This document shows positions 1 through 14,148 of a DNA stretch of 20,047 bases, in pieces; position 1 is the first letter of the stretch; every line of letters starts with the position of its first letter. Below the pieces are notes generated by a model. It did no database searches, was not told the origin of the DNA, and saw nothing but the letters and a program-made list of their open reading frames with translations. The stretch is from IMG/VR virus record IMGVR_UViG_3300047409_000265, positions 1 through 20,047 of that record; one strand, given 5' to 3'. Source of the stretch: a virus. The position numbers and the translations under genes were made by a program.

Positions 1-1930
1 CGGTGTTCGGCCCCAAGCTCCAAGACGCGATTGTGCCTCTATTGCCCGCGAGACGAAGCGTGTCCGACGTGATCGCGATCGTCAAGGTGCCGGCGGTGTC
101 ACCATTGACGAACGTGATCGTCGTGCCAATCGGATACGGAACGTTCGCATTGCTGTCGATCGTAAATGTGCGCGCGGTCGTGTCGGCAGCCGGATGGAGA
201 AGGATGCCGTTCATGTCCGTCGCGACCGTGGTGTACGCCACCGATTTCGATGTCAAAGTGGTGTACCGGACGCCCTGATACCAACCTTCCGCAATCGTCC
301 CCGCCGTGTCGCCGGGGAAGTAATTCAGATTGATGGTTCCCGTACCGCGCGAAATCTTACCGCCACTGTCAATAGCAAACCGGATGCCTGTCGCGGAGCC
401 ACTGAACGTCTGGCTCGCCGTGATGATCTCGCCTCCAGATGCTTGCGCGAAGGCGACTGTGAAGTTTGGGGTTCCGGTCAACGTCACGGTGGCAGCACTG
501 ACCTTGATCGTTCCACCGCTACCCGCGAGCATGTGGTTAGCGGCGGAGGCCGATATTGTGGAGCCGCCGGCATATGTGATTTTTCCGCCAAGTTCGGCCA
601 TCATGTTGGGTTGACCGCTGCAAGTGGAAAACTCCCAGTTGCCCGTAAATATGATATGGCTGCCCGGGTCCTTGGCGTACACATGCTTGAAAGCGACGCC
701 GGACGTCTTCATTCCCTGAATAGTGAATTGAGCACCTTCCTGCGCTGTGAAGCCTGTGCTGTTGATCAGGATGTTAGATGGCGTCGAGCTGTCGCCATTC
801 AGCACGACTGAGTAATTGCTTCCGATCCAAGGCCCCTTGGCCACAGCACCCGCGTAAGTGCCCGCGACCGTGATGTTGCCGGTGACGATAGCGCGAATGT
901 CGAGCGTCGCCACGACGTCAAAAAACTTCTGGATCGTCAGGAAAGCACCGCTCGCGCTGTCGGTCAGACCATTGTTGCTGTTCGAACCATCAGATCGAAT
1001 GAAGTAGGTTCGATTTGCGGTCACGATTTCACGGACGGCGGGAATGACTGGATACCCGGGAGAGAAACCGTCTTCGCCGGGCTGACCGTCCTCGCCCGGG
1101 AAGCCGAGGCCCATCGGACCAGCCGCGCCGTCCGCGCCATTCGTGCCATTCGTGCCAGCCGCTCCATCCCTTCCGGGAATGAAGCTATCCTCGCCATCGC
1201 GTCCGTCGTCGCCCGGGAAGCCCGGGAAGCCGTCAGCGCCACGCGCACCGTCAGCGCCATTAGAGCCGTTGGTGCCACTGGCGCCGGGCGGTCCGGGGAT
1301 GTAACTATCCTGCCCGTCCGCGCCGTCCTCTCCCGGAAAGCCCGGGAAGCCATCAGCGCCGCGCGCACCGTCAGCGCCGGGTGCGCCGTTAGTGCCATTG
1401 GCGCCGGGCGGGCCGGGGATGAAACTGTCCTGCCCATCCGCGCCGTCTTCTCCCGGAAAGCCGGGAAACCCATCAGCGCCGCGCGCACCATCGGCGCCCG
1501 ACGCCCCAGCGCTGCCGGGGGGTCCGGGGATGTAACTATCCTGCCCATCCGCGCCATCTTCTCCCGGGAAACCCGGAGAGCCGTCAGCGCCACGCGCGCC
1601 ATCGGAGCCCGGTGCTCCAGCGCTGCCCGGTGAGCCGGGCGGCCCCGGAATGAAACTGTCTTCGCCGTCCGCGCCGTCCTGACCCGGCATCCCGGGGAAG
1701 CCGTCGCGGCCGTCGTGCCCGGCCGGCCCGGTGCCGATCGAACCGACGAGGACCGCGTTCTCATAGATGTCCCCGGTGTCAACGTCGATATAGAGCCCGA
1801 GCGCTGACGGCGGCCCATGACCCGCCGACCCGTTGGGACCGATGTTGCCCTTCAACGACCAAGCATTGTTCTCACGGAGATAGAAATCCCCGTTGAGATT
1901 GTTGATATAGAAATCGCCGTTGGAAGTCAT
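1..1930 (-). CDS. Collagen-like tail fibre / receptor-binding protein (3' end outside window)
   Basis: At least 643 residues; the frame is open to the left edge. The ATG at 1930 overlaps the stop of the upstream gene (ATGA). Residues 1-65 form a short N-terminal region with a repeated NGDFY motif, probably the virion attachment end. Residues about 66-293 are Gly-X-Y collagen-like repeats, in about 40-residue units carrying EDGADGQDS and IPGPPG. From residue about 295 comes a Ser/Thr/Gly-rich, beta-helix-like region (TYFIRSDGSNSNNGL onwards, later NYFPGDTAGT) typical of phage fibre shafts and tips. Known of the family: Gly-X-Y segments form trimeric rods that hold up receptor-binding tips. Inference: a host-adhesion fibre at the end of the late operon. 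The long Arg-rich minus-strand frame at 1021-1818 is a shadow of the repeats. The identity as a fibre is secure; the receptor is unknown. Confidence 0.85.
   Translation of the reverse strand, partial: MTSNGDFYINNLNGDFYLRENNAWSLKGNIGPNGSAGHGPPSALGLYIDVDTGDIYENAVLVGSIGTGPAGHDGRDGFPGMPGQDGADGEDSFIPGPPGSPGSAGAPGSDGARGADGSPGFPGEDGADGQDSYIPGPPGSAGASGADGARGADGFPGFPGEDGADGQDSFIPGPPGANGTNGAPGADGARGADGFPGFPGEDGADGQDSYIPGPPGASGTNGSNGADGARGADGFPGFPGDDGRDGEDSFIPGRDGAAGTNGTNGADGAAGPMGLGFPGEDGQPGEDGFSPGYPVIPAVREIVTANRTYFIRSDGSNSNNGLTDSASGAFLTIQKFFDVVATLDIRAIVTGNITVAGTYAGAVAKGPWIGSNYSVVLNGDSSTPSNILINSTGFTAQEGAQFTIQGMKTSGVAFKHVYAKDPGSHIIFTGNWEFSTCSGQPNMMAELGGKITYAGGSTISASAANHMLAGSGGTIKVSAATVTLTGTPNFTVAFAQASGGEIITASQTFSGSATGIRFAIDSGGKISRGTGTINLNYFPGDTAGTIAEGWYQGVRYTTLTSKSVAYTTVATDMNGILLHPAADTTARTFTIDSNANVPYPIGTTITFVNGDTAGTLTIAITSDTLRLAGNRGTIASWSLGPNT
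1085..1735 (-). repeat. Tandem coding repeats of about 111-120 bp encoding Gly-X-Y units
   Basis: Five imperfect units read GARGADG, then GFPGFPGEDGADGQDS, then F/Y-IPGPPG. On the plus strand the landmark CCCGGGAAGCCCGGGAAGCC or a near copy recurs at about 1211, 1331, 1451 and 1562. One unit is about 9 bases shorter. The units vary mainly at third positions and in the Gly-X-Y loop residues. Confidence 0.85.
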
Positions 1931-2193
1931 GAGGGCGGACCGTCTCCGCTAGAGCCTTGACCGCCGCCTCCGCCGCCACCGATGTTGCGTCGTTGCACGA
2001 TAACCTGAAACGGCGGCTTGCCATCAATGAAAATCTGAGGAGAGCGCGGAGCTGAAGAACCGAACTTGACGCCGGCCTGACGCGCCTTGGTCTTTGCGAC
2101 TTCGACGCCGTACTTGCGAACGTACTCACCCTGACGGGTAAGGTTCCAGAACTCAGAGGACCACGGGTTTTCGTCGAACTTCGAATCGCCCAT
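1927..2193 (-). CDS. Small protein with a scaffold-tail-like 'NPW..WN.T.QG.Y' domain and glycine linker
   Basis: 88 residues. The start is ATG with GAGGAT about 6 bases upstream, and the stop overlaps the fibre start. Residues 9-49 (NPWSSEFWNLTRQGEYVRK onwards) align without gaps to the C-terminal tail of the scaffold-like protein at 2632-3477, with 21 of 41 identities counted by eye. The C-terminus ends in a run of seven glycines and a GSSGDGPPS tail. Known: 'NPW....N.T.Q' tails are common at the end of phage scaffold-like proteins. Inference: the domain may bind the capsid or portal surface, making this a candidate head accessory or linker protein. The function is not established. Confidence 0.75.
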   Translation of the reverse strand: MGDSKFDENPWSSEFWNLTRQGEYVRKYGVEVAKTKARQAGVKFGSSAPRSPQIFIDGKPPFQVIVQRRNIGGGGGGGQGSSGDGPPS

Positions 2194-2210
2194 ATCGTGA
2201 TCCTCGCATG

Positions 2211-2555
2211 TCAGACGACGTATTGCTCACCGTTGATCGTGATCGTGAGCGCAGTCGCGGTATCCGATCCGCCGACGAGGAAGTCAGTCGACAGCAGCTT
2301 GAGACCCGGAGAGTACCAATCGTAGACGTCATGAGCGAGAATGGGCTTCGCGTTGAACAGCTCAGTGCCGGCGGCGTTCGCGCCGGTCGCGCCGATCCAC
2401 AGCGAAAACGCGGCAGACGAACCCGTCTTGTTTGCGATATGAATATGCTTGATCATATCGAAAATCAGCGCCGACGTGTTGTTGTAGACGTTCGTGGTAA
2501 GCGTGGTCGTGAGCGCGAGCGGTCCCGCGATACGCTTCATTGACGGATTGGCCAT
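2211..2555 (-). CDS. Small structural protein candidate (beta-rich, possible head decoration protein)
   Basis: 114 residues, starting MANPSMKRIAGPLALTTTLT. The ATG has GAGGG six bases upstream. It is rich in Thr/Ala/Gly with alternating hydrophobic strands (IKHIHIANKTGSSAAFSLWI, LSTDFLVGG, LTITINGEQYVV), which suggests a small beta-sandwich. No signal peptide or membrane helix is seen. It follows the scaffold gene across a terminator-like hairpin and precedes the 88-residue protein and the fibre. The position and fold fit a decoration or head-tail accessory protein, and similar proteins are common in phages. At this length it is too short to be an ordinary HK97-fold major capsid protein. The exact role is unassigned. 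Confidence 0.75.
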   Translation of the reverse strand: MANPSMKRIAGPLALTTTLTTNVYNNTSALIFDMIKHIHIANKTGSSAAFSLWIGATGANAAGTELFNAKPILAHDVYDWYSPGLKLLSTDFLVGGSDTATALTITINGEQYVV

Positions 2556-2568
2556 GGGCTACCCTCGC

Positions 2569-2604
2569 AAAAAGAATTGTGGCGCGCATTATACTGCGCG
2601 CCAC
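2569..2604 (-). terminator. Hairpin with T run between scaffold and the next gene
   Basis: A perfect 10-bp stem GTGGCGCGCA / TGCGCGCCAC (2579-2604) has a six-base loop and is followed on the minus strand by AATTCTTTTTG. This looks like a factor-independent terminator 28 bases after the scaffold stop. The Shine-Dalgarno of the following gene begins only a few bases after the T run, so it probably terminates partially or marks a processing site within the late operon. Confidence 0.7.
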
Positions 2605-2631
2605 TGAGCCGTTACTACTGGCAATCTGCGA

Positions 2632-3477
2632 TCAAGCCGGGGGCTTCGTCGCTCCGATCTTGGAGCCGACGCTCTCGGCGAGAGTCTTCGCCTTTTCCAG
2701 ACCGTGCTCGGTGATATACTTGCCTTGGTTGGTGATGTTCCAAGCCTCCTTGGACCATGGGTTGTTCGCCCGGCCGGCCGGTCCGCCGCTACCCCGCGAG
2801 CCGCCGCCGACAGAGGCAGGCCACCAATGCGGAGACTTGTCCTGCATGTCCTTGAACCATTCCTTGGGGGACAGCCCGGGGACAATTCCGGCGACATCCT
2901 TGGTGATGATCCGGCCGTCCTCGGTCACCTCGAAGACTTCGCGGCCGTAGCGGACCGCGTCGAAGATCGCCGTGGGCAACAGCTTCGCCTCGGCCGCCGC
3001 ATCGCGGATTGCGCGTTCGACGTTCGTGGTGACGATGGTCGTCTTGAGACTGGTAACCTCGCCGTCCTTGTCGATGAGGAGCTTCGCATTCGCTTCGAGC
3101 TTGCGCTCAAGGTTGGTCTTGTCGCGCTCCAGCGGAGCAACGGCCTGCTTGACGCGAGCCGCGATGATCGGCTCCAGTTTCGTCTCATCGACCCGGCCAT
3201 CCTTGTTGATGGCTTCGAGCTGCGCGGTAACCTCCTCCAGCTTCCGGGCCTGTTCGGCGACGGCCTCCGGATCGACACCTTCGAACGCCTTGAGTTGTTC
3301 GCGGGCCTCCTTGTGATCCTTCCGCTCTTTGACGAGCGCGCTTTGAACGCGGTCGACATCGGCCTGCGTCTTCACGCCTTGAACGCCGGTCAGCTCCCAT
3401 TTGCCGTTGCGCTCGGTGTAGAGCGCCGCGTAGCCCTCCGGGATTTCGTCTTCGGTATCGTATACGGTCTTCAACAT
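2632..3477 (-). CDS. Phage scaffold-like protein with central coiled coil
   Basis: 281 residues from ATG 3477, which has AGGAGA nine bases upstream; a longer frame begins at 3501 but lacks such a site. The N-terminus (MLKTVYDTEDEIPEGYAALY) matches a widespread phage family that begins with a short 'D.IPEG....Y' module. Residues about 45-150 are charged and heptad-rich, typical of a coiled coil. Then come a folded-looking segment (LLPTAIFDAVRYGREVFEV), a Gly-rich linker, and a C-terminal tail from about residue 239 (NPWSKEAWNITNQGKYITEH). Known: such proteins occupy the scaffold position just before the major capsid gene, and scaffold C-termini contact capsid subunits. Here the next gene encodes only 114 residues. 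Scaffold function is inferred from architecture and position. Confidence 0.8.
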   Translation of the reverse strand: MLKTVYDTEDEIPEGYAALYTERNGKWELTGVQGVKTQADVDRVQSALVKERKDHKEAREQLKAFEGVDPEAVAEQARKLEEVTAQLEAINKDGRVDETKLEPIIAARVKQAVAPLERDKTNLERKLEANAKLLIDKDGEVTSLKTTIVTTNVERAIRDAAAEAKLLPTAIFDAVRYGREVFEVTEDGRIITKDVAGIVPGLSPKEWFKDMQDKSPHWWPASVGGGSRGSGGPAGRANNPWSKEAWNITNQGKYITEHGLEKAKTLAESVGSKIGATKPPA

Positions 3478-3508: not shown

Positions 3509-4012
3509 TCATTCCGGGCGCCGACCTCTCATGAGGGTTTTTCGTTTGATGAGCAATCCACGGCCGAGACCGTAAATGTGCTGTCGTGTAACCTCGGTAG
3601 CGCCGTTCGATCCATTCAGTCGCCGGCTGCCGATGACCCGATGCGCGATGTCCGTGTTGTCCTCGCCTGCGGTGAGGCCAACGCTGATCGCGGTCTGAAT
3701 ATTCTGCGCGTCCTGCTCTGCGATCATGCGCGCCCATGTCGCCATGGTGTGCCCGTGAACGCGAAGCGTCTTGCGCTGCCCGGTGCGGATACGATGCTTC
3801 GCCCACGCCGCGCCGTCGTGCTGATGCTCATCGTCGTCCTCGATCGGTGCCGGCTCCGACGCCTGCCCGGGGGCACGCAGCAAAACCATCTCGCCGTCAT
3901 CGAAGAGAATTTTGACGAGGCAGCCGGGCGCACCCTTGTCGACAGGCATGAAGGCGTCGTCGAAATAGGCGATGACCGCCTCGCGGCCGTCTATGGTTTG
4001 GCGCTCGATCAT
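3509..4012 (-). CDS. Short MuF-like minor head protein
   Basis: 167 residues. The ATG overlaps the preceding stop (ATGA). Residues 1-50 (ERQTIDGREAVIAYFDDAF) form a small module found with phage minor head proteins. An acidic linker follows (EPAPIEDDDEHQHDG), then a segment near residues 95-155 (IQTAISVGLTAGEDNTDIAH, then RVIGSRRLNG, then EVTRQHIYGLGRGLL) that resembles the gpF/MuF pattern of 'sI..Gl..G.....i..rv.G', ending in an 'R..i..L.R' helix. Full MuF proteins usually run several hundred residues, so this is a compact or split form. It lies between the effector-like genes and the scaffold, as expected of a portal-associated head-morphogenesis protein. The family call is moderate and rests on pattern. 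Confidence 0.6.
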   Translation of the reverse strand: MIERQTIDGREAVIAYFDDAFMPVDKGAPGCLVKILFDDGEMVLLRAPGQASEPAPIEDDDEHQHDGAAWAKHRIRTGQRKTLRVHGHTMATWARMIAEQDAQNIQTAISVGLTAGEDNTDIAHRVIGSRRLNGSNGATEVTRQHIYGLGRGLLIKRKTLMRGRRPE

Positions 4013-5004
4013 GCCGCCTTCTCTCTGTTTTTCCAGTGCGTCTGGATCGCGTCATAGAGCGCGACCCATTCCGGGGCCGGCTCGCTGTATTTGCTCGTCG
4101 GCCGTCCGGACAGAAACCGCGCCTCATAATTGGCGCGAGCGCGGAGCCGATCGAGCGAGGCTTTCAGCTCCGGTGGGAGCGTGCTCTCATCGATCGCGTC
4201 GCCCTTCCACACTCGCACCGCGTAGGTCGACGGCCTCTTGAAAGTGCCTTGGACAGTGTCCAGCGCAAAGCCCGCCGCTTTGAACTTCGGGCTCTCCGTC
4301 TCAAAACTGGCCGGCGCTGTATATGCGCGAGCCGTCATCTCCGCGATCGTCTCGTGCATCGCCTGATTGGTCTTGGCCACTCCATCGTTCCAAGACTTCC
4401 ACCATTCGCGGCTATACTCGGTGATCCCGTCGCTCTTCGCAAACACCTCTGTGACGCTCGGCGCCATGGCGCGCGAATATTCGTTATACGTCGGATACCT
4501 CTTGACGTACTCGCCTTTTAGCATGCCTCCCTTGTCGAACACCTCGGCGGCCTTGAAGAAGACGCCGTCCTCGTTCATCCGCTGGCGCTCGGTCTGGTAG
4601 TCGGCAATGAATCGCTGGAACTTCTGATGCCCTATCTCGTGCGCCGTGATGTCCGGAATGGTGGAAGGTTCAGCGATTGCCTTGGCGAAAAGCTCGATCC
4701 GCCCTGAGCCGTCCAGATACGCCGCGCCTGCATAGTCGTGCTGCATGCCGTTGAGTATGAACTTCTGCTCGTCGGTGCGAACCGTGATCAGTGTGGGGTC
4801 GTAGTCGAGATCGGCGGCGACGCGCTTTGCCGCGTCCTCGATCCGCTTCACATAAGCGGCGGCTCCGGCCTCGTCTGCCATCTCGTCTTCGTGCTTGACC
4901 CGCGCGAGCGCGCGATCGAACGCGTCGCCCTCGGCATCGGGCGAGGCGCCACCCGTCGTCCACTTGCCGTCGCGATCTCGTTTCTCATTCGGGTCAAAGG
5001 TCAT
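4009..5004 (-). CDS. Predicted HExxH zinc metallopeptidase with N-terminal 'DPNxxRxxxGKWT' tag
   Basis: 331 residues from ATG 5004, which overlaps the stop of the gene before it. The open frame continues to 5394, but the start at MTFDPNEKRDRDGKWTTGG is chosen because the overlap is tight and the signature is N-terminal in relatives. The tag is followed by an acidic linker and then a domain with the zincin motif AHEIGH (His122, Glu123, His126). A candidate third ligand is the glutamate in MHETIAEMTARAY, about 110 residues later. The C-terminal part is charged and unassigned. There is no signal peptide. Known: HExxH proteins bind catalytic zinc. Inference: a peptidase acting on host or virion protein, possibly carried in the particle. 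Activity is unproven. Confidence 0.75.
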   Translation of the reverse strand: MTFDPNEKRDRDGKWTTGGASPDAEGDAFDRALARVKHEDEMADEAGAAAYVKRIEDAAKRVAADLDYDPTLITVRTDEQKFILNGMQHDYAGAAYLDGSGRIELFAKAIAEPSTIPDITAHEIGHQKFQRFIADYQTERQRMNEDGVFFKAAEVFDKGGMLKGEYVKRYPTYNEYSRAMAPSVTEVFAKSDGITEYSREWWKSWNDGVAKTNQAMHETIAEMTARAYTAPASFETESPKFKAAGFALDTVQGTFKRPSTYAVRVWKGDAIDESTLPPELKASLDRLRARANYEARFLSGRPTSKYSEPAPEWVALYDAIQTHWKNREKAA

Positions 5005-5978
5005 TTGCGGCCCTCGTCCTGAGTCCACGCCGGCATCAGCCCGATCTTCTGCGGGGCGAACACGGTGTGCTCCGCGTCGGCGGTGCGGTTCTCCGCGCCG
5101 TGCGGTCCGAAATTGACCCACGAGTTTTGCCCACGCGTCTCGTTCGTCATCGCGCCCCGCGCCAGATCGGAGAACATGGAGGCGTGCACGCGCCACGCGT
5201 TCTCTTCGCCGTCCGCGCGGAAACCATTCCCCTCCTTGAAGTGGCCCATCATGTCGTGCACGATCCGGAACACGTCGTTGACGACGACCTTCCGGCCGCC
5301 GATGACCTCGCCTGTCTCGCGCAGCATCGGATTGTTCTTGCTCGTGTCGCCGCCGGCCGAGCCGTAGCCGAGATCGGTGGGGAAGCCCCACCAATGGTTA
5401 TTCTCGCTCACGTCCATCGCGGCGAGGCGCGGCGACAGAGCATAGGGGTCCTTCTGCCCGGGCTGCACCCAATCGACTTTCAGGCCGGTCTTCTTGACCG
5501 CCTCCCACTGCCCGAGCACTTCCTTCGCCAGCGCCTCATAGCTCGCCTTGACGGCGGGATCGTTCGGCGCGTTCACCTCGTGGTCATAGGCCTCGGCAAC
5601 CCGGGCGGCGCGCTCCTTGTCAACCTTGACGTAGGCCGTTGGCGGGTCGTACGGTATACCCGCGTCGCGCATGTAGGCCTCGGCCGCGTCCTTGAGGCGC
5701 CCGATCGGCCCGGGGACGTACCATTGGCCGTTCAGCTCGATCGGTTTCTGCGGGAGACCCTCCAGCGGCTTATATCCGGCCGCCACAAGCGCTGCCTGCG
5801 CGGCTGCGGCTTCCGGTGTCTCCGCGCCCTCATGCGCGCCAGCGCCCACCGGAAGGGCGTGGACGTTGATTGGCGTCTTGGTCACGATCGCGCTGGCCGC
5901 CGCGTCACCCTTGAGAGGGACATCCTGCGTGCCGAACTCGCCGTGGTTGTTGCGCGCCTGATTCGGGTTATAGGTCAC
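5001..5978 (-). CDS. Phage protein with 'HDxxGH...GEExAW..H...ETRGQNSWVNFGP' domain and N-terminal 'NPNQxRxxxG' tag
   Basis: 325 residues. It uses a GTG start at 5978 that overlaps the previous gene by 11 bases; the ribosome site is weak, so coupling is likely. The N-terminus MTYNPNQARNNHGEFG matches the tag of the next protein. Residues about 75-130 (LNGQWYVPGPIGRLKDAAEA) form one module. Residues about 235-292 hold the strongly patterned core FRIVHDMMGHFKEGNGF, GEENAWRVH and ETRGQNSWVNFGP. This core recurs in phage and mobile-element polyproteins. The His/Asp/Glu spacing (H241, D242, H246, E258, E259, H265) suggests metal binding, so a hydrolase is possible, but I know of no demonstrated activity. 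It sits with the metallopeptidase between portal and scaffold, as expected of a virion-carried effector. Confidence 0.75.
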   Translation of the reverse strand: MTYNPNQARNNHGEFGTQDVPLKGDAAASAIVTKTPINVHALPVGAGAHEGAETPEAAAAQAALVAAGYKPLEGLPQKPIELNGQWYVPGPIGRLKDAAEAYMRDAGIPYDPPTAYVKVDKERAARVAEAYDHEVNAPNDPAVKASYEALAKEVLGQWEAVKKTGLKVDWVQPGQKDPYALSPRLAAMDVSENNHWWGFPTDLGYGSAGGDTSKNNPMLRETGEVIGGRKVVVNDVFRIVHDMMGHFKEGNGFRADGEENAWRVHASMFSDLARGAMTNETRGQNSWVNFGPHGAENRTADAEHTVFAPQKIGLMPAWTQDEGRK

Positions 5979-11508: not shown

Positions 11509-11955
11509 TTAACCCGTGCCGCCCGTCCGGATTTCCCGCATGCGTTTCACGTCCCAGATCGCGATCTGGTTATGCCTCTTGCCGGCGGAAACCGCCGCGC
11601 TCCGGCCGGAGATGTTGTGCGAGACGTCGAGGTAGGTCTTGCCCGATTCCTTGTCGGTCCAACCGCCGATGTGCGCCCGGGGATCACTGAGCACGTCCGC
11701 GTGCTGGCGCGCGTACTCGCCAATGAGACGGGCGCCCTGCGGACCGCGAAGGTCTGCCTCGGAAACGATCTGCGTGTGCCCGGGGATCGAAACCATGTAG
11801 CCGGCTTTCGGCATGACGCCGTTCGTCGGCCGCACAGAGAAACCGCCCGGGTTCTTGGTGATCGTTTTGAGCACCTTCGGATGAAGCTGGACGTTGGCGA
11901 TCTTCGCCACGCCCGAGTTGTGCGCGTTACTGCCGTGCCCAAGTGCGTCTTTCAT
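11509..11955 (-). CDS. GHGS-tagged protein with conserved 'HIGGWxD...YLDVS' phage domain
   Basis: 148 residues, ATG overlapping the previous stop (ATGA). The N-terminal tag is MKDALGHGSNAH. The payload ends with ARQHADVLSDPRAHIGGWTD, then KTYLDVSHNISGR and HNQIAIWDVKRM. This 'IGgW...g..YLDvs.n......A...g..nQ.aiwD' pattern is recognisable from phage accessory proteins and polyproteins, but I know of no assigned activity. It has no signal peptide. It is the last of six consecutive genes sharing the tag. Inference: a small effector or virion-cargo protein. Confidence 0.75.
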   Translation of the reverse strand: MKDALGHGSNAHNSGVAKIANVQLHPKVLKTITKNPGGFSVRPTNGVMPKAGYMVSIPGHTQIVSEADLRGPQGARLIGEYARQHADVLSDPRAHIGGWTDKESGKTYLDVSHNISGRSAAVSAGKRHNQIAIWDVKRMREIRTGGTG

Positions 11956-12443
11956 TTGCGTGGCCTCGCGTATTGACGGAATGCGGTCATGACGTGCTCG
12001 GGAAAGGACTTCCCGGCCTTCATCCCCGCGTGAACCTCGGAGACGAACTCTTTCGGATTCATCGCCGCGTATTTGGAAACGTGCTGCCGCGCCATGTCTT
12101 GGTGATCGAGCGTCATGAAATTATCCGGCGGATCGTAGAGCACATGGCCGATCTCGTGATGGATCACGTGCTCCGGAACTTGGGATGAGAGGTTCGTCGA
12201 GCGCGCCGCAGAGCCAACCGGATCGCGCCAGAACTTCGAGTTCTCATTGAGGCTGATACCCCGCCAATCGTGATAGGCGACGCCGGAGCCTACCGACTTG
12301 ACGATCACGGCCTCGTGCCCGTTCTCGCGTGCGATCTGTTGAGCGAGCGCGAGGTTCTTGGCTTTGTTCTTCGTCCACTGGCGCCCGATCGCGGCGACGC
12401 CCGCGCCGTGCGCGTTGCTGCCGTGGCCGAGTGCGTCTTTCAT
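11952..12443 (-). CDS. GHGS-tagged predicted HExxH metallopeptidase
   Basis: 163 residues. The tag is MKDALGHGSNAHGAG. The payload carries VIHHEIGHVLYDPPDNF (His96, Glu97, His100) followed by NPKEFVSEVHAGMKAGK, where Glu132 or Glu136 could be the third zinc ligand, as in gluzincins. The pattern 'HE.GH ... Y...n..EF.sE' is typical of small phage metallopeptidase-like proteins. It has no signal peptide, so it would act inside the host or be packaged. The first 45 nucleotides match the neighbouring gene at 12930 except for two silent changes, although the payloads differ. Confidence 0.78.
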   Translation of the reverse strand: MKDALGHGSNAHGAGVAAIGRQWTKNKAKNLALAQQIARENGHEAVIVKSVGSGVAYHDWRGISLNENSKFWRDPVGSAARSTNLSSQVPEHVIHHEIGHVLYDPPDNFMTLDHQDMARQHVSKYAAMNPKEFVSEVHAGMKAGKSFPEHVMTAFRQYARPRK

Positions 12444-12447
12444 CTTG

Positions 12448-12930
12448 TCACCGATCGTAAATGTTGCGGGCCGGGAGACCCGTCAGCCGGGCGTGCTCTT
12501 TGGCGTGACGGTCGAACGCGGCGCGCGTGTTGTTGCCATACTCGCCATAGCGGTTTTGACCGACGTGGAATGTGTCTCGGAGCCGGCCCATCGCACCCTC
12601 ATGTTCGGCGATTTTCTTGTCGAAGTGCCGCGCATCGTCGGCCGACAGCTCGGCGCCCGTGTGCGTATCGCGAACGCCAAGGAAATAGCCGTTGCCCGAC
12701 CCCGCATGTTCTTGCGCGACACCCTGCATCTTCCCGGTGATCATGGAGCCGGCCTTGCCGCTGGCAGCTTTCAAGCTGTTGTGCGAGGAGATGACCTTCT
12801 CCTGCCCGATATGCTTCCCGACCTGTCCGGCCGCGAGCGAATAGGGCTTGACGATGACCTGATAACGCTTGCCGACTTGCGCGATGCCCGCGCCGTGCGC
12901 GTTGCTGCCGTGACCGAGTGCATCTTTCAT
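12448..12930 (-). CDS. GHGS-tagged protein, unknown payload
   Basis: 160 residues with AGGTAGG upstream of the ATG. The tag is MKDALGHGSNAHGAG, almost identical to that of the next gene. The payload begins KRYQVIVKPYSLAAGQ and contains GNGYFLGVRDTHTGAELSAD, then a helical, charged region (DARHFDKKIAEHEGAMGRLR) and an ending rich in Arg/His (RAAFDRHAKEHARLTGLPAR). I do not recognise this domain. The beta-then-helix layout looks like a folded enzyme-sized domain, but no catalytic motif is clear. Confidence 0.72.
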   Translation of the reverse strand: MKDALGHGSNAHGAGIAQVGKRYQVIVKPYSLAAGQVGKHIGQEKVISSHNSLKAASGKAGSMITGKMQGVAQEHAGSGNGYFLGVRDTHTGAELSADDARHFDKKIAEHEGAMGRLRDTFHVGQNRYGEYGNNTRAAFDRHAKEHARLTGLPARNIYDR

Positions 12931-12936
12931 GGTGGC

Positions 12937-13197
12937 CTACCTGATCCGAATGAGTGAGTTGGGGTTGTCGACCCGCGCGTTCATAGCGATCCGTTCGGCG
13001 ACCGCGCGGCGCTTGGGACTGGAGACCTTCTGCCAGACGTTGCCGGTCGTGGTGACGCGCTGACCGGCCGCCGTGCGCCCGGCATACGCCACGTGCTTTT
13101 CGACCTTGAGCTTCGGCCCGACCGCGCGGCGCACGCCGGTCTGATGTACGACCTTGAGGCCGTGCGGGTCGCTGCCGTGTCCTTGTGCGTCTTTCAT
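12937..13197 (-). CDS. GHGS-tagged small basic protein, unknown
   Basis: 86 residues from ATG 13197; the same frame is open further upstream to 13629, but the tag marks the start, in line with its five neighbours. The tag reads MKDAQGHGSDPHG, with Gln in place of the usual Leu5. The payload is strongly basic (GVRRAVGPKLKVEKHVAYAG, SPKRRAVAERIAMNARVDN), which would suit binding nucleic acid or a capsid interior, though this is inference. It is the shortest member of the tagged set. Confidence 0.68.
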   Translation of the reverse strand: MKDAQGHGSDPHGLKVVHQTGVRRAVGPKLKVEKHVAYAGRTAAGQRVTTTGNVWQKVSSPKRRAVAERIAMNARVDNPNSLIRIR

Positions 13198-13237
13198 GAA
13201 CCAACCATCCCACGCCCGGGTAAAGAAAAGGTAAACG

Positions 13238-13792
13238 TCAGCCGCGCCCGCGCAGGAGCCGGTGAATGGCCGATGCTTCCTTGGCGCCGATCTTGCCGGT
13301 TCGGTTGTTGGCAATGGCTTTGCTGACGCTCTCCGGGTTGTATCCGTGGCGGCCGACCGTACCATCCTTCCGACGCCCGAACTCGTCGAGGCCCGCCGTC
13401 CGGCTTTTGTTGTGCTCGCTGAGTGAGGCCTGCTCGCGCTGATACTCGTCATGCAGGCGGGCACGATCATTCCCTGACATGCCGCCGTGAACCGGAGCCG
13501 GCATCGACTTCTGACCGCTAGCGAGCGCTTCCGCAGCCGCCGGGCCGAGGTCTTGCGAGCCGCCGCGCTGCCGATAGCCGAGCACGCTCGCCGCGTCGTT
13601 GACCTGATCGAGGTACTTGTTCTCGGCATGGGGGCTGTGCCCGCGCATCGCCTCAGCCGCCTCTTTCGCGTCCCTCGCGATGTAGCGGAGTTCCGCGTCC
13701 GACTTCTGATGATAGGGATGGCCGGGAATCGGCTTGGCGAGTTTCTTGGGTCCGCCGCGCGAATTGCTGCCGTGGCCGAGAGGGTCCTTCAT
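13238..13792 (-). CDS. GHGS-tagged protein with conserved 'YHxKSDAELRYIxRDA...YLDQVNDA' phage domain
   Basis: 184 residues. The tag reads MKDPLGHGSNSRGG, the most diverged of the set. Residues about 25-78 contain HPYHQKSDAELRYIARDAKE, then AEAMRGHSPHAENKYLDQVN and ASVLGYRQRGG. This module recurs in phage structural and accessory proteins and is predicted helical; its function is not known to me. The C-terminal segment (YNPESVSKAIANNRTGKIG, then AKEASAIHRLLRGRG) is a second recurring motif. The middle is charged and may be a linker. This gene shows most clearly that the tag is attached to an independently conserved domain. Confidence 0.75.
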   Translation of the reverse strand: MKDPLGHGSNSRGGPKKLAKPIPGHPYHQKSDAELRYIARDAKEAAEAMRGHSPHAENKYLDQVNDAASVLGYRQRGGSQDLGPAAAEALASGQKSMPAPVHGGMSGNDRARLHDEYQREQASLSEHNKSRTAGLDEFGRRKDGTVGRHGYNPESVSKAIANNRTGKIGAKEASAIHRLLRGRG

Positions 13793-13796
13793 GGGC

Positions 13797-14144
13797 TCAA
13801 TCCTTCTTGACTGATGCGAAGCCGCGCGCCCGAAGCCGGGTCTTGAGGTCCGCGATCTCCGCCGTGGTCAGCGGAGCCGGATCGGACTTCGACGTGCCGG
13901 AGTGCAGCTCGCGAGCAACCGGATCGTTGGCGAGCTGTGCGGCAGTGTCGGAGCGGGATTTGTCCAAAGCCCTCGCGGCGGCCATGGCGCGATCGTACAT
14001 GATTTCCGAACCGGGCTTGCGCGTGATGCCATTGCCCATCCACTCGTGCGCGGCAGCGCGCTGCGCCCCGTTCTGCCCGCGAGCAATCACTTGGTGCATG
14101 CGCTGCCCGAGCGCGTCGCTGCCGTGTCCCAGTGCGTCCTTCAT
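13797..14144 (-). CDS. GHGS-tagged helical protein, first gene of the tagged cluster
   Basis: 115 residues from ATG 14144, with GGGAAG upstream; the frame stays open further upstream, but the tag marks the start. The tag reads MKDALGHGSDALG. The payload is helical and charged (QRMHQVIARGQNGAQRAAAH, then YDRAMAAARALDKSRSD) and ends LTTAEIADLKTRLRARGFAS. No catalytic motif is visible. It begins the run of six tagged genes, four bases downstream of the small basic protein gene at 14149-14394. Confidence 0.7.
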   Translation of the reverse strand: MKDALGHGSDALGQRMHQVIARGQNGAQRAAAHEWMGNGITRKPGSEIMYDRAMAAARALDKSRSDTAAQLANDPVARELHSGTSKSDPAPLTTAEIADLKTRLRARGFASVKKD

Positions 14145-14148
14145 GGCG

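Follow-up and report, generated by a model that had tools for sequence, protein, structure and literature searches.

A second copy of the scaffold C-terminal domain in a small phage protein that may serve as a fibre adaptor

The window analysed here, a virus fragment of 20,047 bases from IMG/VR, carries head genes on its minus strand. In this block, a domain from the C-terminus of the head scaffolding protein occurs a second time, at the N-terminus of an 88-residue protein (p88). We propose that p88 is a scaffold-derived fibre adaptor, which holds a fibre on the head via a scaffold-type site on the coat or at the portal vertex, and assign to this reading a probability of roughly 0.57. About 41 residues at the N-terminus of p88, homologous to the C-terminal end of the scaffold, would fold as a helix-turn-helix docking domain and fix the protein to the head at the scaffold-type site, on the coat or at the portal vertex. 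The remainder of p88, with its strand motif and Gly-rich tail, would then connect to the cap at the start of the collagen-like fibre, which is encoded by the overlapping downstream gene. The fibre held in this way may be an optional and exchangeable device for adhesion or decoration.

The minus-strand gene set comprises terS, terL, a DUF4055 portal (PHROG 145), small head genes, the scaffold, a 114-aa gene, p88 and the collagen-like fibre (Table 1). As the fragment stops within the fibre gene, the major capsid gene is absent from the window. For the 114-aa protein, a role in head decoration is perhaps conceivable as a guess.

Table 1. Position of the scaffold, p88 and fibre features in the window
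Feature	Position	Strand	Evidence
Head scaffolding protein, 281 aa	2632..3477	-	PHROG 206, E 2.6e-43 over residues 1-267
Scaffold C-terminal docking domain (putative), residues 239-279, NPW....W.NxT.QG...	2641..2763	-	Alignment to p88, conserved residues
114-aa protein between scaffold and p88, same insert	2211..2555	-	67-72% identical homologues in the same place in L017 and L034
p88, small adaptor protein of 88 residues: docking domain, short strand motif, Gly-rich tail with end GSSGDGPPS	1927..2193	-	
Second docking-domain copy, p88 residues 9-49	2047..2169	-	21/41 against scaffold tail, hhalign E 4e-28
Strand-like motif FQVIVQRRN, p88 residues 62-70	1984..2010	-	Recurs after the domain in relatives (VIVQRK, VLIQRR, VLVQRR)
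p88 Gly-rich C-terminal tail GGGGGGGQGSSGDGPPS	1930..1980	-	Tail end co-varies with downstream gene type
ATGA overlap, p88 stop and fibre start	1927..1930	-	
Collagen-like fibre protein, incomplete at fragment end	2..1930	-	Pfam Collagen E 9e-25; collagen-like minor tail and tail fibre PHROGs
Fibre cap module GDFYI...GDFYLRENNAWSLKGNIGPNG, first ~36 fibre residues	1823-1930	-	

The original observation was that residues 9-49 of p88 align without gaps to the end of the scaffold. This was borne out by BLASTP run with composition-based statistics, which placed them on scaffold residues 239-279 with 21 identities in 41 ungapped positions (52 bits, E 5e-14). The parent protein is assigned to the PHROG 206 "head scaffolding protein" family (E 2.6e-43). 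The Smith-Waterman score was 128, compared to a maximum of 71 among 5,000 shuffles of p88. A profile built from scaffold tails only retrieved p88 at E 9e-16 (58 bits), with 16.4 bits for the top of 14,700 shuffled sequences, and hhalign comparison of the scaffold-tail and p88-type profiles aligned all 41 columns with a probability of 99.8% (E 4e-28). The relation is thus significant also when composition is taken into account. The similarity involves a short region with Gly-rich segments close by, and could in principle reflect chance or the composition of two short Trp/Gly-rich stretches. The shuffle, profile and profile-profile tests exclude this explanation, and the same pattern is seen again in about 20 phage groups, so that its probability is practically nil.

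The scaffold-tail residues N, P, W, W, T, Q, G, A and G are conserved across 24 relatives. Columns that are invariant or nearly so in both the scaffold-tail and the adaptor domains are N, P, W, W, T, Q, G, G, A, A, G and P, and column conservation is correlated between the two types (Spearman 0.81). Some columns change in a type-specific manner, for example from Lys to Val at column 24. A recent duplication of the scaffold tail of the window phage itself is not supported: p88 clusters with the adaptors, and the tail of the window scaffold is placed among those of other scaffolds. In a tree on the 41 columns, most adaptors form a clade of their own, and p88 falls inside a 15-row adaptor clade (support 98/83); the tree does not separate one origin from several.

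In the AlphaFold2 model of p88, helices are predicted for residues 18-28 and 30-39 with a pLDDT of about 90, and the rest is low-confidence coil. The scaffold model, which was built with IMG/VR rows only (mean pLDDT 82), has a long helix (98-163), a disordered Gly-rich linker (223-235) and two short helices (248-258 and 260-269). The offset between the helix pairs of the two proteins is exactly 230 residues, the same as in the sequence alignment. The coinciding predicted helices and the same conserved columns fit the earlier suggestion that p88 may use the same site as the scaffold tail. The central coiled coil is absent from p88 and from 22 aligned adaptors. The p88 model consists of two short docking helices and no dimerising helical body, and it lacks a beta base, unlike the beta-barrel or beta-prism anchors of head fibres. 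Foldseek returned no structural match for either model, sequence searches of the PDB gave no convincing match, and Pfam and PHROGs yielded nothing with the domain alone as the query.

In scaffolds that have been compared with P22, the coat-binding regions are C-terminal (PMC12005531), and the SaPI1 protein CpmB binds coat via a motif that is common to the C-terminus of the 80alpha scaffold (PMC5644958). By analogy, the C-terminal end of the scaffold most likely grips the head shell during assembly, and the docking domain of p88 would bind coat or portal.

Searches of IMG/VR with scaffold and adaptor queries identified about 95 loci, which were clustered at 95% scaffold DNA identity into 62 clusters. 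At many of these loci, the scaffold is followed by another open frame, here termed the adaptor, that carries the domain N-terminally. Adaptors like p88 occur in about 20 related, non-redundant groups of uncultured tailed phages, and share its layout of domain, strand motif (VIVQRR, VLIQRR or HWIIQK) and Gly-rich or collagen-like tail. The L062 and L091 proteins have an NPW start that is very divergent; a search by the scaffold-tail profile on its own did not reach significance for the NPW starts of L062, L091 and L089 (E 4.9 to 9.5 for L089 and L062, the latter value being that of L062). With p88 alone as the query, nothing was found in the viral_contigs or genome_contigs collections.

The cassette is inserted between the scaffold gene and that of the major capsid protein, inside the head gene block, and its presence is reflected in the distance between the two. 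In the 11 adaptor-bearing clusters with the capsid gene in view, the gap is always 2.3-6.6 kb, as opposed to 54-578 bp in 36 of the 38 adaptor-free clusters (Fisher test of adaptor against gap, 2.7e-9), in which the scaffold gene stands just upstream of the major capsid gene. The two exceptions are filled by unrelated small ORFs (L075) and by a fibre-like cassette without docking domain (L087). L062 and L091 also looked like exceptions at first, and are the loci with the divergent NPW start. Among isolates, the scaffold directly precedes the capsid gene in RDJL3, 9g and MiCath, and in phage Simon, the isolate record that heads the p88 matches, the capsid gene comes after a scaffold of the ordinary kind; no isolate with an adaptor was found.

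The adaptors that have the capsid gene in view belong to one clade, with capsid proteins of about 82% identity or more. The cassette is missing from L009, L010, L067 and L069 despite a major capsid protein that is 81-90% identical. Only remnants of it are kept in L010, where the first ~28 codons of the 114-aa gene persist, and in L089, where a remnant of about 58 codons resembles the divergent adaptor starts of L091 and L062. The absence of the cassette beside such similar capsid proteins, together with these remnants, indicates that phages have both acquired and lost it, and that heads can be assembled without it. The proposal that p88 completes the head as a needed function is not supported, since the four phages with closely similar capsids do without the gene. 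At 80 further IMG/VR loci of other scaffold lineages, searched with 4 kb flanks, the domain was found once per locus and always at a C-terminus. Within such flanks, re-use of the domain therefore appears to be specific to the p88 clade.

The gene directly downstream of the adaptor is fibre-like, and its start usually overlaps the adaptor stop; in nearly all relatives the start lies between -3 and +4 nt from that stop. A conserved frameshift joining p88 to the fibre is not supported, as start offsets and frames vary among the relatives. The downstream proteins begin in one of two ways, either with a cap module of the form G(D/E)FYI...DFYLRE.GAW..KGN, or with ILD..KSIVVVLGEAK. The C-terminus of the adaptor varies with this choice: a GxGxP-type end is found in 14/14 adaptors before "GDFYI"-type genes and in 0/6 before the other type (Fisher 2.6e-5, with kinship ignored). 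Such co-variation would be consistent with physical contact between the adaptor tail and the fibre cap. In an independent search with the fibre cap as the query, all 13 of 13 loci were on adaptor-bearing contigs. As a point against the fibre-adaptor reading, one gene with the cap in L023 is not directly preceded by an adaptor. At L097, the adaptor and fibre genes are found beside terS and the scaffold is not adjacent, so that the adaptor travels with the fibre. A homology between the fibre cap and the scaffold N-terminal module was also considered, and rejected as unproven, as its score was reached by 2 of 200 shuffles.

It had been suggested to look for phages in which the two domain-bearing proteins are fused. 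No fusion of scaffold and p88 was found, but the domain is fused to fibre sequence in two cases. In L012, two divergent copies stand in tandem at the N-terminus of a collagen-like fibre of 988 aa (E 0.007 for the first and 1.5e-8 for the second), and in L016 the domain, collagen repeats and a cap-like module are contained in a single frame of 121 aa. Several of the downstream proteins are collagen-like or tail-fibre-like, or have beta-propeller-like repeats, and some have no family match; two cassettes also encode a glycosyltransferase. A fibre-like partner gene fits the earlier view of p88 as an anchored accessory part.

The fibre linkage also bears on a reading in which p88, in the manner of SaPI1 CpmB, binds coat in place of the scaffold and alters head size or the moment at which the scaffold leaves. 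A coat-binding C-terminal motif is common to CpmB and the 80alpha scaffold, and the two compete (PMC5644958); p88 has the tail domain of the scaffold encoded beside it, which by analogy would bind coat. However, the adaptor is phage-encoded and has no dimerising helical body. Its gene is linked to fibre genes, in L012 and L016 the domain is joined to fibre sequence, and many scaffold-bearing relatives do without it. A role of p88 as a scaffold competitor is thus very unlikely.

Some adaptors have retained more of the scaffold than its tail. Those of L004, L005 and L030 start with a stretch that resembles the scaffold N-terminus (YASRSEIPRGAEALY against YDTAEEIPEGYAELY). When 25,247 ORFs were searched with the scaffold N-terminal profile, they were the top three matches outside the scaffolds themselves, although individually weak (E 0.24-1.2). 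In the profile-profile comparison with hhalign, the module reached E 4e-6 and a score of 27, compared to a maximum of 15.7 in 200 column shuffles. These three adaptors have thus kept the scaffold N-terminal module and not the coiled coil, which suggests that the adaptor is a scaffold minus its coiled coil. Judged from the sequences, the data suggest that p88 is a scaffold-derived adaptor, in which the scaffold tail would be reused as a fibre anchor.

That the fibre is on the head, and not on the tail, is suggested by the position of the cassette and the homology of the domain. Alternatively, p88 could anchor the fibre to the tail or neck, with the scaffold-like domain now binding another partner. 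The cap motif is present also in fibres annotated as tail proteins, and the cap module together with the collagen repeats resembles annotated tail fibres. The same conserved columns in both domain types speak against a change of partner, and the cassette lies within the head gene block of a clade whose capsid proteins are closely alike (about 82% identity or more). We regard attachment to the tail as quite unlikely, and the head as the probable location.

The geometry counts against a fibre anchor, because the docking site of scaffold is inside the procapsid, on its inner face, whereas fibres are expected on the outside. The difficulty could be met by docking at the portal vertex, by passage through openings or pores in the shell, or by binding after assembly. 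The main rival to the fibre-anchor reading is that the scaffold-type domain loads p88 and its partner into the procapsid as cargo, so that the partner would be an internal head protein and not an external fibre. Scaffold indeed docks inside, the genes adjoin that of the scaffold, and P22 shells take up cargo that has been linked to C-terminal segments of their scaffold (PMC9962691). Yet the partners are long collagen-like, tail-fibre-like and beta-propeller proteins of up to 500-900 aa, which, like the glycosyltransferase in two cassettes, fit surface structures better, and internal proteins of this size would compete with DNA. Loading of internal cargo is therefore unlikely. A scaffold is normally a temporary protein that exits or is degraded. 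As a tentative and rather doubtful extension of our proposal, a scaffold reduced to its docking end may have become a permanent part of the virion, sitting at the scaffold sites of the inner shell or portal vertex and carrying a fibre that ends outside; an internal clamp of assembly would then serve to mount exchangeable fibres on the surface.

If the proposal is true, it shows how new surface structures can arise in phages, through the copying of an interface used in assembly. The domain would then be a natural, putative minimal docking tag of about 41 residues, with many sequence variants and with natural presence and absence controls. It could be useful for locating scaffold docking in this phage group, for which we found no solved scaffold-coat structure. 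The adaptor and fibre pair also marks a variable slot between the scaffold and capsid genes, as a place to find host-contact genes.

In a literature search that covered a minority of subscription journals, no precedent for a scaffold-derived fibre adaptor was found; already known are head fibres with other anchors and a scaffold element that is shared with a competing scaffold. The helix-turn-helix of P22 gp8 and the helix-and-hook of the 80alpha scaffold are, as here, small helical C-terminal elements of coiled-coil scaffolds behind a flexible linker (PMC12005531, PMC5644958). No match between them and the domain described here was found in sequence or fold, and here another protein carries a second copy of the domain N-terminally. 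The RIIK motif of SaPI1 CpmB and the 80alpha scaffold is likewise a case of two proteins with the C-terminal coat-binding element of a scaffold in common. However, CpmB is encoded by a satellite and acts as a competing scaffold inside the shell that determines capsid size, whereas p88 is phage-encoded, with an N-terminal element and a fibre gene as its partner.

Head fibres of the phi29 gp8.5 and Andhra gp13 type are fixed to the capsid by an N-terminal base. These bases are beta-barrels or beta-prisms within the fibre chain, and bind the outer surface of the coat. In contrast, the anchor proposed here would be helical and scaffold-derived, and is usually located on a separate small protein. 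The capsid targeting sequences of T4 are short head-directing elements that bring other proteins to the head, and are cleaved by the head protease; p88 is not known to be cleaved. Like the scaffold-fused cargo of P22, they resemble the p88 system in the use of a short scaffold-related or head-directing element, but both deliver internal cargo, whereas p88 would carry a fibre.

The slot between the scaffold and major capsid genes may be open to fibre cassettes of other kinds. In the related locus L087, neither occupant of the slot, one of them fibre-like, has the NPW docking domain of the adaptor, which suggests that other fibre cassettes may use this position. Two further loci, L089 and L010, retain only cassette remnants. 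Glycosyltransferase genes are located downstream of the adaptor and fibre genes in L003 and L016, and the fibre may be the target of modification by their products.

Comparison of the 114-aa protein, encoded between scaffold and adaptor, with Pfam and PHROG gave no match. Homologues are present at the unchanged position in L017 and L034, and Xanthomonas phage PBR31 contains a partial match under a gene annotated as acetyltransferase.

Features of the window and related loci
Feature	Location	Strand	Remark
Six-gene run	window 11509-14147	-	common N-terminus MKDALGHGSNAHG
Adjoining genes after portal	window 5001-5978, 4009-4989	-	similar N-terminal stretches
114-aa protein	window 2211-2555	-	no Pfam or PHROG family assigned
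96-aa and fibre-like 423-aa proteins	L087 7328-8889		scaffold-capsid slot
Cassette remnant	L089 7223-7402		truncated NPW start, without fibre
Cassette remnant	L010 4149-4240		first ~28 codons of 114-aa gene
Glycosyltransferase	L003 12162-13049		PHROG 3408, E 1e-98
Glycosyltransferase	L016 7209-8387		PHROG 3408, E 2e-115

Two proteins encoded after the portal gene start similarly (MTYNPNQARNNHGEFGT and MTFDPNEKRDRDGKWTT), possibly with a further common N-terminal tag, on head-associated proteins; such a pair is also present in L010. Elsewhere in the window, six successive proteins that are otherwise unlike one another share a short N-terminus (variants MKDPLGHGSNSRG and MKDAQGHGSDPHG), with 58-nt units as the underlying DNA-level repeat. 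This N-terminus may be a sorting or packaging tag, comparable to a capsid targeting sequence.
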